Shown here one piece after another: positions 1-6,032 of a stretch of 6,032 nucleotides of DNA. The notes beneath the pieces are model-generated. The model made no database searches, had not been told where the DNA came from, and worked only from the letters and a program-made list of their open reading frames with translations. The stretch is from a bacterium (lineage in GTDB: Bacteria; Ratteibacteria; UBA8468; B48-G9; JAFGKM01): positions 1 through 6,032 of the forward strand of contig JAGGVW010000248.1 in NCBI GenBank assembly GCA_021157805.1, written 5' to 3'. Both the position numbers and the translations under genes were made by a program. Within the stretch, counting starts at the first letter, position 1; every line of letters begins with the position of its first letter.

Positions 1-132
1 ATCTGTTACAATAATAATTTCTCCATTTTCTCCATTTAAAGGAAGAAAACAGTTTCTTTTTAAAAAATTATATGGAAAGAGATTTAAAACTTCAGGCTCT
101 ATTTTTTCTTCAAGATTTTCAATTTTTTCCAT
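1..132 (-). CDS. gspE: GspE/PilB-family assembly ATPase, N-terminal fragment (3' end outside window)
   Basis: The first 44 codons of a gene run off the low end of the window. The visible protein starts MEKIENLEEKIEPEVLNLF and contains PYNFLKRNCFLPL followed by GENGEIIIVTD. This matches the N-terminal domain of type II/IV assembly ATPases, in which a Pro-x-x-x-hydrophobic-Lys/Arg-Arg segment is followed by hydrophobic-Pro-Leu and a strand ending near an Asp (usually a DP turn). The ATPase would act at the cytoplasmic face of the inner membrane to drive pseudopilin or pilin assembly. The Walker motifs lie outside the window, so catalytic competence cannot be judged. The ATG overlaps the secretin stop (TGA at 121-119) by 14 bases in a different frame and is preceded by AGGG. 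The gspD-gspE order is common in type II loci, so gspE is favoured over pilB, but the fragment does not separate them. Confidence 0.7.
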   Translation of the reverse strand, partial: MEKIENLEEKIEPEVLNLFPYNFLKRNCFLPLNGENGEIIIVTD

Positions 133-1738
133 TTTTCCCTTTATTATTCTGGTTGAAAATTTTTTCCTTCTCTTTCTTTATTTTCTCTGCCTGTTCAAAA
201 GTACTTATTATATGTGGTGTAATAAAAATTAAAAGATTTGTTTTAACACTTTTCTTTGATTCTTTTCTGAATAATTTCCCCAATCCTGGTATATCTCCTA
301 AAAACGGAACTTTAACTATTGAATTTTCTGTATCATTTCTCATTAGTCCGCCAAGAACAACTGTTTTGTTATTTGGGACTATTAAAGTTGTATCGGCTGA
401 CCTTTTTGCTGTTGTTGGTGCTTCAGGGAGTCCTCCTTCAACAAGTTTTGTTACTTCCTGAGATATTTTTAATTTTACATATTTATCCTGGCTTATCTGT
501 GGAGTTATTTTAAGAACAATTCCAACATCTTTATAATCATAACTTTTAATTACATCTCCTGTTCCCCCTGTGGATGACTGAACAAATCTTGTTTCTTTCA
601 GATAAGGAATATTCTCACTAACATTTATTATTGCTTCCTGATTGTCTGCTGTCATTATTTGAGGAGTTGAAAGAATATTGAAATGAGTATCCTTGGCGTA
701 CATATTTATTAAAGCACCGACACTTAAAGGAAAAGTTAAATCTCCTTTATACATTGCAATTGACAACCCTTCTGGTGGAACTCCTGTTGTTGCATAATTT
801 TCAAGAGTTCCTAAATTTGTTCCAGCAGCACCGGTATATTTTTCGTTTTTGAATTTTTTAGATGTAGCCCATTCTATTCCAAGTTCTTTTGTTTTATCAT
901 ATGTAACTTCAGCAATTAATGCCTCAATTAAAACCTGATTTGTAAGAACATCAAGTTCTTTTATTATTTTTTCTATTTCAGGAAAATCCTCTGGGTCAGC
1001 ATGAACAATTAAAGAATTTGTTGACTTTGCTGCTACAACTGATGGATGGATTGGAACTTTTCCTGAAACTCTTCTTGTTATTATTCTTGTTTTTTTTGAA
1101 AGAATTTGAGTTAAAATTTTTGCTACTTCTTCACTATCAGCATTTTCAAGGCGGTATATTCTGAATTCTTCTTTCCCACTTGGTGCCGGAGTATCTATTT
1201 TTTTTATTATTTCAAGCAATTTTTTAACATTTTCTCCATAATCAGCAATTATTAAACTATTTGTTCTTGAATCAACTGTTATCTGTCCTCCTTTTGAAAT
1301 ATAAGGATTTAAAATATGAGATATTGTTTCTGAAGGATAATACTTTAAAGGTACAATTTGAATTAAATAATCCTCTAACTTATCTTCAGGTATATCTCCA
1401 ACATTTATTATTTTTGTCCTTGCTTTTCCATCTGAAACAGGCACTATATATGAAATATTATTCTTTTTTATAACTGTATAACCATAAAGAGAAAGAACTG
1501 TTTTAAAAATCTGGTCTATTTGTTCTACAGGGACTGACTTATTTGAATAAATAGTTACATTTCCTCTTACAGCCGGGTCTATAACATAATTTTCTTTTAC
1601 AAATTCCCCAACAAATTTAATAAATGTTTTTATATCAACATTATTAAAATTTAAAACAAAATTATCTGCATTTATTGCAATTATCCATATGAAAGCAAAA
1701 AAAAACACTAATTTTCTTAAGAAAATTTTTTTTACCAT
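119..1738 (-). CDS. gspD: Secretin of type II secretion type (GspD-like)
   Basis: This is a second outer-membrane secretin of 539 residues. It has a signal peptide at 1-24 (KKIFLRKLVFFFAFIWIIA) and an N0 domain at about 26-100 with GspD-type features (FNNVDIKTFIKFV, YVIDPAVRGNVTI). Two N1/KH-like domains follow at about 123-185 (DSRTNSLIIADYGENV) and 191-264 (STNSLIVHADPEDFPEIEK), rather than the three of classical GspD. The secretin core spans about 268-511, with QVLIEALIAEV, the signature KVPFLGDIPGLGKLF and NLLIFITPHII. After the core only about 28 charged residues remain, so there is no obvious pilotin-binding S-domain. The start at 1738 is chosen because the signal peptide follows directly and the HEAT gene stops 13 bases earlier. 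An in-frame ATG at 1813 would add 25 charged residues ahead of the signal peptide and overlap the HEAT gene. The ribosome site is weak (GGAAAA at 1747-1742). The ATPase gene overlaps its end, and gspD-gspE adjacency is usual in type II loci. GspD is favoured over PilQ on the N-domain signature. Confidence 0.9.
   Translation of the reverse strand: MVKKIFLRKLVFFFAFIWIIAINADNFVLNFNNVDIKTFIKFVGEFVKENYVIDPAVRGNVTIYSNKSVPVEQIDQIFKTVLSLYGYTVIKKNNISYIVPVSDGKARTKIINVGDIPEDKLEDYLIQIVPLKYYPSETISHILNPYISKGGQITVDSRTNSLIIADYGENVKKLLEIIKKIDTPAPSGKEEFRIYRLENADSEEVAKILTQILSKKTRIITRRVSGKVPIHPSVVAAKSTNSLIVHADPEDFPEIEKIIKELDVLTNQVLIEALIAEVTYDKTKELGIEWATSKKFKNEKYTGAAGTNLGTLENYATTGVPPEGLSIAMYKGDLTFPLSVGALINMYAKDTHFNILSTPQIMTADNQEAIINVSENIPYLKETRFVQSSTGGTGDVIKSYDYKDVGIVLKITPQISQDKYVKLKISQEVTKLVEGGLPEAPTTAKRSADTTLIVPNNKTVVLGGLMRNDTENSIVKVPFLGDIPGLGKLFRKESKKSVKTNLLIFITPHIISTFEQAEKIKKEKEKIFNQNNKGKNGKN
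133..140 (-). promoter_or_regulatory. Ribosome binding site of the ATPase gene, inside the second secretin gene
   Basis: AGGGAAAA on the minus strand directly precedes the ATG at 132 and lies within the last Lys/Asn/Gly codons of the secretin. The same AGGGAAAAATG arrangement starts the first secretin at 4689. It fixes the ATPase start and suggests translational coupling. Confidence 0.65.
1710..1727. repeat. 18-base perfect palindrome just inside the second secretin gene
   Basis: The sequence AATTTTCTTAAGAAAATT reads the same on both strands. It lies 12-29 bases into the coding sequence, over signal-peptide codons. As RNA it could fold into a 7-pair stem with a TTAA loop, but the stem is almost all A-U and the codons are ordinary for Ile-Phe-Leu-Arg-Lys-Leu. 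It may be chance. Confidence 0.5.
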
Positions 1739-1751
1739 ATTTTTTCCAAAA

Positions 1752-2759
1752 TTATCTTCTTCTGCCTTCAATTCCTTCTTCCTGACGTGATTTCTCTTTT
1801 TGAATAAATACATCTATTGCTTTCTGAATTTCTGCTTTTACACTCTTATCCTTTTCTATCTTCAACATATCCATAAGTGTTTTTAGTACCTGTGGATTAT
1901 AATCAAGTTGAGAAATAATTTTTATAGCATTCTTTCTTATTTCAGGATTTGGGTCTTTAAGGTAGGTATATATTGCTGAATCAATCCCCCCAATATATCC
2001 TATATTATTATCCTCATTGTCTTCATTTATATTCCTTCTTAAATAATATTCTATTGAATCAGTAATAACTTTTCTTACTTCAGGGTTTTTCTCATATTTT
2101 AGACGGATGAGGAATGTTCTCAAAGCAAGAAGTTCTTTGAGGTCATTTGTATTATTATTCTCATCATCATTATTGTCATTGTTTGTATTAGAAAAAGCCC
2201 TTTTTGAATAAATTTTTGTTGCATACTTCCTTACCAGAGGGTCAGTATCATCCATAAGTCGTATTAAAGTAGTATCAGTTCCAAATAAAGCATCAAGAGC
2301 AACAGATGCAGTATCTCTTACTTCAGGGTCAGGGTCTGAAAGTAAAGTATAAAGGTCAGGGATGTAAACAACTGCTCCAACACTAGTTGTATTATCATCT
2401 GAATTATCATCATTGTTCCCGATAGAAAACAAGTTTCTTGCTCTACCTTCATTGGTGCCTGAATCATCTCCTGAAGAAGAAATCATACTTCCTGCAATTG
2501 TCTGGATTGTCTGTATTCTTATTTTAGGGTCTGGATGTCTCAACTTTCCAGCAATAATAGTCCTTACAAAGTCATAAACAACTGCTTGTCTATATTCTCC
2601 TCTATTATCATTTCTGTTGTCTCTATTTCCAAATGTGCCTCTTGAACTTCTTCTGGAACTTCTTGAAGAACTGGTTCTTCTTGATGTCTGTGCAATAGAT
2701 GGTATAACCATCCCTATAAAAATCAAAGTAATAAGAAATAACTTAATTTTATTTTTCAT
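1752..2759 (-). CDS. Exported HEAT-repeat protein with Ser/Arg-rich N-terminus and Asp/Asn-rich insertions
   Basis: No established secretion-system family is recognised for this protein. From the ATG at 2759 it has 335 residues. It begins with a signal peptide at 1-23 (KIKLFLITLIFIGMVIPSIA), probably cleaved before Gln24, with no lipobox Cys. Residues 25-40 are only Ser, Arg and Thr, followed by an Asn/Arg/Asp-rich stretch to about 57. Six HEAT-like helical repeats follow at about 59-91, 132-160, 162-187, 207-243, 259-286 and 289-320, carrying HPDPKIR, DPDPEVR, DTDPLVR, EKNPEVR, DPNPEIR and the weaker EKDKSVK. Asp/Asn-rich insertions interrupt the array at about 94-127, 190-206 and 243-259. 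HEAT arrays are protein-binding scaffolds, so a periplasmic scaffold, assembly factor or pilotin-like partner of the flanking secretins is a reasonable inference, not a demonstrated function. A start at 2774 would add five residues but has a poor ribosome site. The stop lies 13 bases before the second secretin, suggesting co-translation. Confidence 0.85.
   Translation of the reverse strand: MKNKIKLFLITLIFIGMVIPSIAQTSRRTSSSRSSRRSSRGTFGNRDNRNDNRGEYRQAVVYDFVRTIIAGKLRHPDPKIRIQTIQTIAGSMISSSGDDSGTNEGRARNLFSIGNNDDNSDDNTTSVGAVVYIPDLYTLLSDPDPEVRDTASVALDALFGTDTTLIRLMDDTDPLVRKYATKIYSKRAFSNTNNDNNDDENNNTNDLKELLALRTFLIRLKYEKNPEVRKVITDSIEYYLRRNINEDNEDNNIGYIGGIDSAIYTYLKDPNPEIRKNAIKIISQLDYNPQVLKTLMDMLKIEKDKSVKAEIQKAIDVFIQKEKSRQEEGIEGRRR
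2142..2192 (-). repeat. AAT/GAT trinucleotide-rich tract encoding an Asp/Asn insertion
   Basis: The coding strand runs through GATGATGAGAATAATAAT and similar triplets, giving 17 codons dominated by Asn and Asp (NTNNDNNDDENNNTND) between the third and fourth HEAT repeats. The triplet structure suggests expansion by slippage, which would keep the reading frame. Confidence 0.65.
2640..2687 (-). repeat. Ser/Arg low-complexity tract
   Basis: Within the HEAT-protein gene, 16 consecutive codons encode eight Ser, six Arg and two Thr, immediately after the predicted signal-peptide cleavage site. At the DNA level it consists of near-repeated GAAGTTC/AGAAGTTC-type units. Confidence 0.75.
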
Positions 2760-4734: not shown

Positions 4735-6032
4735 TTAATAAGTGTTAATTTCATATATTATTCCATTTTTAGAAAGGACCAATTTCCTCTTTTCTTTTCT
4801 TAATATTTTAAACCCTTCCACCATATCTCCTATAGTAACTCTATATGTTCTCTTTTCTCCTTCAATGAAGAAGTATTCCATTCCATTAAATATCATCCTT
4901 CCTCTATAAATTAAATTGCATTTTCCTTTTGGAATTATAATTGGAGAAACAGGTGGTTTTGTTGGTTTTCCAATAGCAGAAAGTTCTGTTTCTTTTGAGA
5001 CAATGTAAGGAGATGGTTTCTTTGGTTTTGAAATAATTGATGTTTTTTCTGGTTTCATAAGAGTTGCTTTTTTTAATATACTTATGACTTTTGGTTTTTT
5101 GACAATTGTTATAACTTCTGGCTCTCTGGTAAGGACTATATTTGTTGGTTTTAGTTTTTTCATAACTTCCATTGTCAGTTTTCCAGACGAAAATGGGTCC
5201 CTTTCTCCTTCTATGTTTATTGGAATTTTTTTCTTTGCAAGAAGAGTTGATTCAGCAATTTCTTTCTCTTCTGTTTTTTTAGTCGGTGTTTTTTTAGTTT
5301 CTGTAATTTCTTCTCCAACGATCATTTTTAAACGTGCCTGTGGTGATTTTAAACGAGAAGCAAGTAAAAATAATTCAATAAACCATCCGATAAGTAATAA
5401 TAAAAAGACAAATTTAAATGCATTTTTCCTTAAGAATTCCCCTATGTTAAATCTCTCTTTATAACCACCAGCAATAGTTGGGATTGCTTTTCTGGCTGGT
5501 TTTTTGACAACTTTTTTCCTTTCAGGAATACCTTTTGCTTTTTCTGGTTTGCCTTTCTTTATTTTAGTTATTTCTGTCTTTATGTATTTTGATATTTCTT
5601 TCTGAGTTGACAATACTTTACTTTTTGCTTCTTTATCCAGTTCGGTTGCTCTGTTTATAATTGGGATGATAGAGGCAGTAACTCTCTTCTTTTCTTTTCT
5701 TTTTGCCTTTTCTATTCCTAATTTTTTCGGTATCTTCTTTATTGGTTTAACTTTTTCTTCTCTTTTCTTTTCAGGAACTTTCTTCTTTAATTCTTTCTTT
5801 GTCTGAATTAAAGCAAGTTTTAATTCTTTCGCTTTTTCTTTCTCAAGTTTTTCAATAAGATTCTTTCTTTCTTTTTCCCTTTTTATTTCTTCTAATAAGG
5901 CAAGTAGTTTTTCTTTTTTCTGCTGTCTGAGTTGTTCTTTTTGTTGTCTGGATAGTTGTAATTGTTTTTTTCTTTCTTCTTTTTGTTTTTTCTTTTCTTC
6001 TCTTTCTTTCTGTTTTTGTAGTAATTTTTGTC
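4735..6032 (-). CDS. Coiled-coil, single-pass inner-membrane protein with PilP/GspC-like periplasmic C-terminus (5' end outside window)
   Basis: The likely role is an inner-membrane clamp protein of a type IV pilus or type II secretion machine that contacts a secretin from the periplasm. The frame is open from 6030, the first complete codon, to TAA at 4737-4735, giving at least 431 residues. Seen in order: a Lys/Glu/Gln-rich segment at about residues 1-85 with spaced leucines (KEKLLALLEEIKREK, LIEKLEKEKAKELKLALI), likely coiled coil; a basic stretch; one membrane helix at about 205-226 (FVFLLLLIGWFIELFLL); an RDPF motif at 277-280, as found in PilP and GspC families; a Pro/Lys-rich linker; and a compact beta-type end at about 370-431 (YRVTIGDMVEGFKIL) like the PilP/GspC homology region. 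Basic residues before the helix suggest a cytoplasmic coiled coil. A TTG at 5613 could be read as a start giving 292 residues, but it has no good ribosome site and the frame continues upstream. The downstream secretin supports the role. PilP itself is usually a short lipoprotein, so the architecture is nearer GspC with a large extension. Confidence 0.7.
   Translation of the reverse strand, partial: QKLLQKQKEREEKKKQKEERKKQLQLSRQQKEQLRQQKKEKLLALLEEIKREKERKNLIEKLEKEKAKELKLALIQTKKELKKKVPEKKREEKVKPIKKIPKKLGIEKAKRKEKKRVTASIIPIINRATELDKEAKSKVLSTQKEISKYIKTEITKIKKGKPEKAKGIPERKKVVKKPARKAIPTIAGGYKERFNIGEFLRKNAFKFVFLLLLIGWFIELFLLASRLKSPQARLKMIVGEEITETKKTPTKKTEEKEIAESTLLAKKKIPINIEGERDPFSSGKLTMEVMKKLKPTNIVLTREPEVITIVKKPKVISILKKATLMKPEKTSIISKPKKPSPYIVSKETELSAIGKPTKPPVSPIIIPKGKCNLIYRGRMIFNGMEYFFIEGEKRTYRVTIGDMVEGFKILRKEKRKLVLSKNGIIYEINTY

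Follow-up and report, generated by a model that had tools for sequence, protein, structure and literature searches.

Secretins need helpers for their assembly, and the familiar ones (TPR lipoproteins, GspS-type lipoproteins, and AMIN or LysM peptidoglycan binders) come from a few model phyla. A stretch of bacterial DNA of 6,032 nucleotides, referred to below as the window, carries a gene for a HEAT-repeat protein with a putative signal peptide, and this gene lies between the genes of two secretins. The question raised by this locus is which of the two secretins, if either, the HEAT protein serves, and in what way.

The HEAT protein and the secretin Sec1

The features of the window are collected in Table 1; the genes are transcribed in the order X, Sec1, HEAT, GspD. 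The start of gspD was picked for its signal-peptide-like N-terminus, and a longer open reading frame, to 1813, overlaps the HEAT gene. The HEAT reading frame begins with the ATG at 2759 and ends with a stop codon at 1754-1752; another in-frame ATG is present upstream, at 2774.

Table 1. Features of the window, with the evidence on which each assignment rests.
Feature	Coordinates	Strand	Evidence
Exported HEAT-repeat protein (predicted), 335 aa	1752..2759	-	ORF; Pfam HEAT/HEAT_2; repeats; AlphaFold2 solenoid
Putative signal peptide, residues 1-23	2691..2759	-	Sequence by eye; helix 2-22 in AlphaFold2 model
Sec1, PilQ-like secretin, 623 aa	2818..4689	-	Pfam STN, Secretin_N, Secretin; NCBIfam; model
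GspD secretin, 539 aa from ATG at 1738	119..1738	-	TIGR02517, 447.9 bits (cut-off 351.35)
X, K/E-rich protein at PilP/GspC place, 5' end beyond window	4735..6030	-	ORF; relatives

Two Pfam families, HEAT (PF02985; E = 6.8e-17, 60.4 bits, cut-off 23.5) and HEAT_2 (PF13646; E = 2.4e-15, 57 bits, cut-off 27.7), matched the HEAT protein. A single-repeat profile built from the HEAT family located six repeats, at residues 63-95, 131-164, 158-192, 211-241, 257-289, and 290-323 (180.9 bits), and the six HEAT-like repeats described in an earlier, sequence-only reading of the window are thus confirmed. The top score of this profile in 1000 shuffles of the window protein was 9.6 bits. Since the profile contains the window's own repeats, the Pfam match is the independent test. 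The DPxxR-type signatures that had been ascribed to the repeats were found in five of the six, in the form (D/N)PxxR, and not in the sixth, which reads EKDKSVK.

Inspected by eye, the N-terminus of the HEAT protein resembles a type I signal peptide, with positive charge, a hydrophobic segment, and a small-residue site (SIA followed by QT); type I cleavage would be expected after SIA. A Ser/Arg-rich linker follows (approximately residues 24-60). No lipobox was found in the window protein, which is devoid of Cys, and a search of 75 family entries (74 distinct) with a regular expression gave one lipobox match, placed within the hydrophobic stretch. Pfam scans of the window protein at E<=1 revealed no TPR and no LysM family, and TIGR02521 was absent from its NCBIfam matches (E<=1). 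Having neither lipobox nor TPR, the protein was rejected as a classical lipoprotein pilotin, and the suggestion of a pilotin-like factor was given up in that classical sense.

An AlphaFold2 model, computed with 34 aligned sequences, is built from 13 helices and lacks strands (mean pLDDT 70.1, pTM 0.44); confidence is low at residues 23-50, 95-127, 193-198, 245-260, and 330-335, and Ser/Arg- and Asn/Asp-rich stretches are among the parts so affected. By predicted fold, the HEAT protein is an alpha-solenoid, as had been anticipated from the sequence, and the model, taken together with the putative signal peptide, agrees with the proposal of an exported helical scaffold. Foldseek and VIA-align comparisons of the model led to ARM/HEAT solenoids, such as importin and the adaptins of AP complexes, which have the fold in common with the window protein; the matches are, however, mostly eukaryotic or designed, and what they share with it is the fold only, with no implication for function.

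The best NCBIfam family of Sec1 is PilQ (TIGR02515; 194.6 bits, under the cut-off of 284.35), and its score with the GspD profile (180.6 bits) is also under the respective cut-off (351.35). A helical, TPR-like N-terminal region (residues 26-181), in which Pfam TPR matches lie below cut-off, stands before N0; N0/N1, the secretin domain, and a C-terminal tail that ends in GILKKF complete the layout. The tail is unstructured in the Sec1 model (mean pLDDT 70.0). No AMIN match was found in Sec1 (Pfam, E<=1).

Gene order around HEAT in one phylum

Forty-two matches to the HEAT protein, the window protein included, were found at E<=0.001 in a search of 5.8 billion proteins. A scan of species genomes revealed HEAT in 16 loci, all within one phylum, and nine of the 16 were deposited as Candidatus Omnitrophota. 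A relative of one diverged HEAT form, that of genome G029, is named Candidatus Ratteibacteria bacterium at NCBI (P0056), and other relatives there are named Omnitrophota; the phylum is likely Candidatus Ratteibacteria. Among viral contigs with GspD, no relative was present in 100 pattern matches.

The phylum was sampled with 35 fragmented genomes, and lineages are called main or diverged by sequence divergence. The family profile found HEAT in 24 genomes, and diverged HEAT proteins stand behind Sec1 in five of the remaining 11: G029 (200 aa), G031 (274 aa), G032 (111 aa), G033 (121 aa), and G034 (119 aa), with lengths counted from the first start codon. HEAT is thus present in 29 of the 35 genomes; the best Pfam score of the G034 protein, 21.6 bits, is under the HEAT_2 cut-off of 27.7. 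The number of repeats ranges from about two, in the versions of 111-121 aa, to six, and there is much variation in the linker, which is S/T/R/G-rich, and in the N/D-rich loops.

The first 16 loci were reached via HEAT, and their gene order is therefore conditional on it; a search for Sec1, with up to four candidates scored per genome, is the unbiased direction. Sec1 orthologues were found in 27 of the 35 genomes, 26 of them at E<=1e-100; the other, from G034, is a 158-aa end piece (122 bits for Sec1 versus 107 for GspD) whose naming leans on position. In 26 of the 27, the HEAT gene follows downstream on the strand and contig that bear Sec1. G027 is the exception: its contig ends within Sec1, and a piece of HEAT begins another contig. 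The gene is thus kept in relatives and lies behind Sec1 wherever the assembly extends beyond that gene (26/26). A dedicated secretin partner, as proposed earlier, is the best reading. The two genes adjoin directly in 25 of the 26 genomes, and in G029 a reverse-transcriptase ORF lies between them. This insert (L045 8583-10094) matches Pfam RVT_1 and is of the group II intron sort. No Sec1 orthologue was found in the six HEAT-less genomes (G019, G022, G023, G028, G030, and G035), but two of these, G023 and G030, have a contig break within gspD, and little can be read from the missing Sec1 and HEAT there.

Outside the phylum, 256 genomes were searched, and the best Sec1 match (3.9e-69) covered profile positions 194-596 only. 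Twenty neighbourhoods from 19 genomes were analysed, comprising the 19 best-scoring matches and G077, which was added for coverage. A gene matching the PilM profile (at least 50 bits) was present in 16 of the 20, and the HEAT-repeat profile revealed nothing at E<1 in any of them; the same profile recovers the HEAT genes in all in-phylum loci scanned.

A periplasmic or secreted protein with another task (binding to the surface or to peptidoglycan, for instance, or being itself a substrate of secretion) might simply ride in the operon, and the variability of linker, loops, and repeat number would suit such a protein. We consider this unlikely, since the place of HEAT is near-constant throughout the phylum, despite the reverse-transcriptase ORF of G029 and changing downstream neighbours, which argues for a functional tie. 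In one sublineage (L003, L006, L010, and L059), gspE is followed by genes that look by eye nucleotidyltransferase- and epimerase-like, in place of gspF-M.

The tie of HEAT to gspD is loose. GspD follows HEAT directly in 22 of the 29 HEAT genomes, 19 of which have Sec1 on the same contig, but a gspC gene (T2SSC/PDZ) is interposed in G029, G032, G033, and G034. G031 fits the latter order across a contig break, with gspC at C206:1-735, just before gspD. In G007, a case that consists of one MAG, gspD is on another, short contig and HEAT sits between Sec1 and gspE; in G016 a contig break splits the HEAT gene itself. The description of HEAT as lying between two secretins therefore holds for the window, where GspD and the PilQ-like Sec1 flank it, and fails in the four genomes with an interposed gspC and in G007. 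Because of these same exceptions, Sec1 is to be regarded as the constant neighbour of HEAT. At the G007 locus (L007 5110-7786 and L058), the gap between HEAT and gspE is 127 bases, and gspD is missing there.

A protein that bridges both secretins, or both systems, by contacting Sec1 and GspD would be well placed directly between the two secretin genes, where HEAT lies both in the window and in 19 of all 29 HEAT genomes. Against it stand the interposed gspC of four genomes, the gspD located elsewhere in G007, and the versions of 111-121 aa, which look too small for spanning two rings. A bridge is thus very unlikely. The spacer between secretin rings that had been put forward for the window was rejected on the gspC interposition, the G007 arrangement, and the two-repeat versions. 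Matches to gspC-like genes at E<=0.001, some of them weak and PDZ-only, were present in 31 of the 35 genomes (none in G001, G021, G023, and G030); in the main lineage they lie at a distance of about 43 kb (G008) or on separate contigs. A replacement of gspC by HEAT in the main lineage was not supported, since most of those genomes have a gspC-like gene elsewhere.

Sec1 or GspD as the candidate partner of HEAT

The place of HEAT behind Sec1 might also reflect operon order, with the protein serving type II secretion (GspC/GspD); it could, for instance, handle substrates for GspD or act on GspD in the manner of a pilotin. HEAT overlaps gspC by four bases in L042 and shares one base with it in L044; measured from first start codons, HEAT lies closer to gspD than to Sec1 in 15 of 19 genomes with both secretins adjacent; and in G024 and G026, where Sec1 was not found, a HEAT fragment adjoins gspD and the contig ends inside HEAT. 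Because of the overlaps and the shorter gaps, a role in type II secretion has to be kept in mind. We nevertheless regard it as rather unlikely: gspD is away from HEAT in G007 and gspC is away from it in the main lineage, yet HEAT stays behind Sec1 wherever the stretch is assembled, and both the distance correlations and the secretin C-termini described below point to Sec1.

Distance trees of 19 taxa, in which pairs are not independent, were compared. The uncorrected distance correlations with HEAT were 0.91 for PilM, 0.90 for GspE, 0.88 for Sec1, and 0.86 for GspD; all genes of the locus are thus similar in this respect, and Sec1 does not rise above PilM or GspE. When each secretin was controlled for the other and for GspE, the partial rank correlation was 0.32 for HEAT and Sec1 versus 0.09 for HEAT and GspD. 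The value for Sec1 was the higher one in 19 of 19 jackknifes and in 397 of 500 subsets of 13 taxa, with the opposite order in 103. The difference is small, and the partial correlations mildly favour Sec1 as the partner of HEAT.

The C-termini of the two secretins differ. The last residue is aromatic in all 27 Sec1 proteins (window included, the cut G027 protein excluded) and in none of 26 GspD proteins (window included; G001, G027, and G032 (cut) excluded). The Sec1 tail, at 2818-2920 in the window, comprises 32-35 residues beyond the last conserved (L/I/F)(T/K)P in 24 of the 27 proteins, and in the other three this pattern matched inside the tail. Twenty-two of the 27 tails end with G-[IL]-[IL]-x-x-F. 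An aromatic end was found in one of 14 secretins from outside the phylum (L104) and in neither of two second secretins from within it (L114 and L116). Judged by these sequences, the aromatic-ended tail of Sec1 is a candidate docking site for HEAT. One secretin from outside the phylum (L100 7382-9016) has, by eye, an apparent C-terminal TPR-like extension.

A proposed helper of Sec1 and the machine around it

We propose, with a probability of about one half, that HEAT acts in the periplasm as a soluble alpha-solenoid dedicated to Sec1, which it would aid in assembly or anchoring. HEAT would be exported to the periplasm via Sec and would there bind Sec1, most likely either at the TPR-like N-terminal region or at the conserved C-terminal tail; once bound, it could promote or stabilise assembly of the secretin in the envelope. 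Observed are the gene, its repeats, the predicted fold, the near-constant position behind Sec1, and the loose tie to gspD; the periplasmic location, the direct binding, and the assembly role are inferred. The role would parallel that of the six-TPR pilotins Tgl/PilF/PilW and of peptidoglycan-binding AMIN domains elsewhere. AMIN is not universal in type IV pilus secretins. In the 35 phylum genomes it was found in none (E<=0.001), and two of 14 control genomes were positive. A PilW/PilF-type protein (TIGR02521) was not found over cut-off in any of the 35 genomes; this is a weak test of pilotin absence, since none of the 14 controls passes the cut-off either and sub-threshold TPR matches occur in all 35 phylum genomes.

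HEAT repeats and secretin helpers are each known already. TsaP is a periplasmic, secretin-associated protein of type IV pili with a LysM peptidoglycan-binding domain; like it, HEAT would be a periplasmic accessory of a pilus secretin, but the Pfam scan of the window protein showed no LysM domain. GspS/AspS are the pilotins of type II secretion systems. Docking on a C-terminal secretin tail, proposed here for HEAT, would be a likeness to them; an S-domain at the secretin C-terminus is mentioned in PMC10653833. In contrast to GspS/AspS, the window protein has a HEAT fold without lipobox, and its proposed partner secretin is PilQ-like, not GspD. The same paper describes pilotins of type IVa pili as six-TPR superhelices aiding PilQ multimerisation, Tgl as an outer-membrane lipoprotein, and AMIN domains as bringing PilQ to peptidoglycan (PMC10653833). 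HEAT resembles Tgl/PilF/PilW in being a small exported protein whose helical superhelix, as proposed, acts on a PilQ-type secretin; it differs in having HEAT instead of TPR repeats, about two to six in number, in the missing lipobox, and in a gene placed directly behind that of the secretin.

Archaea are not known to have secretins. The only HEAT protein tied to a type-IV-pilus-like machine that was found in the open-access literature is archaeal, the Halobacterium HEAT_PBS protein OE2401F, which, according to PMC2666748, interacts with chemotaxis and flagellar accessory proteins. OE2401F and the window protein are alike in being HEAT-type proteins tied to machines that are related, in a broad sense, to type IV pili; OE2401F, however, functions in motor switching, where it links Che with Fla proteins and no secretin is involved. 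Among the titles and opening parts of abstracts listed from the open-access literature, none describes a HEAT protein tied to a secretin, be it as a fixed partner or otherwise.

The occurrence of HEAT next to Sec1 in a little-known phylum suggests an undescribed helper of a pilus or secretion machine. A more specific form of the proposal, which we put forward tentatively and as a possibility only, is that a non-lipidated periplasmic HEAT solenoid grips the C-terminal peptide of an AMIN-less, TPR-bearing pilus secretin, and thus represents a new class of assembly factor, convergent with TPR and GspS pilotins. If true, the phylum-wide HEAT partner, the matching secretin tail, and the finding of no AMIN would suggest a second invention of the helper role, based on a different solenoid, and HEAT and the Sec1 tail would be a defined protein-peptide pair from organisms known via metagenomes.

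HEAT would belong to a type-IV-pilus-like module with the order PilM - PilO-like - X - Sec1 - HEAT. In the fullest locus, L013, this module is preceded by pheT and a zapA-like gene and followed by GspD - GspE - GspF - GspG - (H, I) - J - K - L - M - polA. At this locus, the Pfam scores of PilM, E, F, G, and K passed the cut-offs and those of PilO, J, L, and M fell short; the names of H and I go by place, and those of pheT, zapA, and polA by eye. The T2SSE ATPase family has 2 to 13 matches per phylum genome. In the three genomes examined for it, a separate ATPase locus was found, in which a smaller, PilT-like ATPase has a PilB-like one on either side (PilB and PilT were assigned from size and score): L112 (G013), L113 (G010), and L115 (G032). 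Since no match to PilM, PilO, or a secretin was found in the 11-14 kb examined at these loci, a candidate for completing them is the PilM-PilO-X-Sec1-HEAT module. Two other pilus-like loci with a secretin and a PilM match of their own (L114 and L116) gave no HEAT match.

Protein X has one membrane-like segment, as judged by eye, and a strongly conserved C-terminal domain. Searches of the PDB (E<=1) and of Pfam at its cut-offs gave no match for it, and seven of 10 X members have a sub-threshold match to Pfam CdsD_C. Its position and appearance suggest that X is the equivalent of PilP/GspC. In L045 and L047, X is apparently doubled in tandem.
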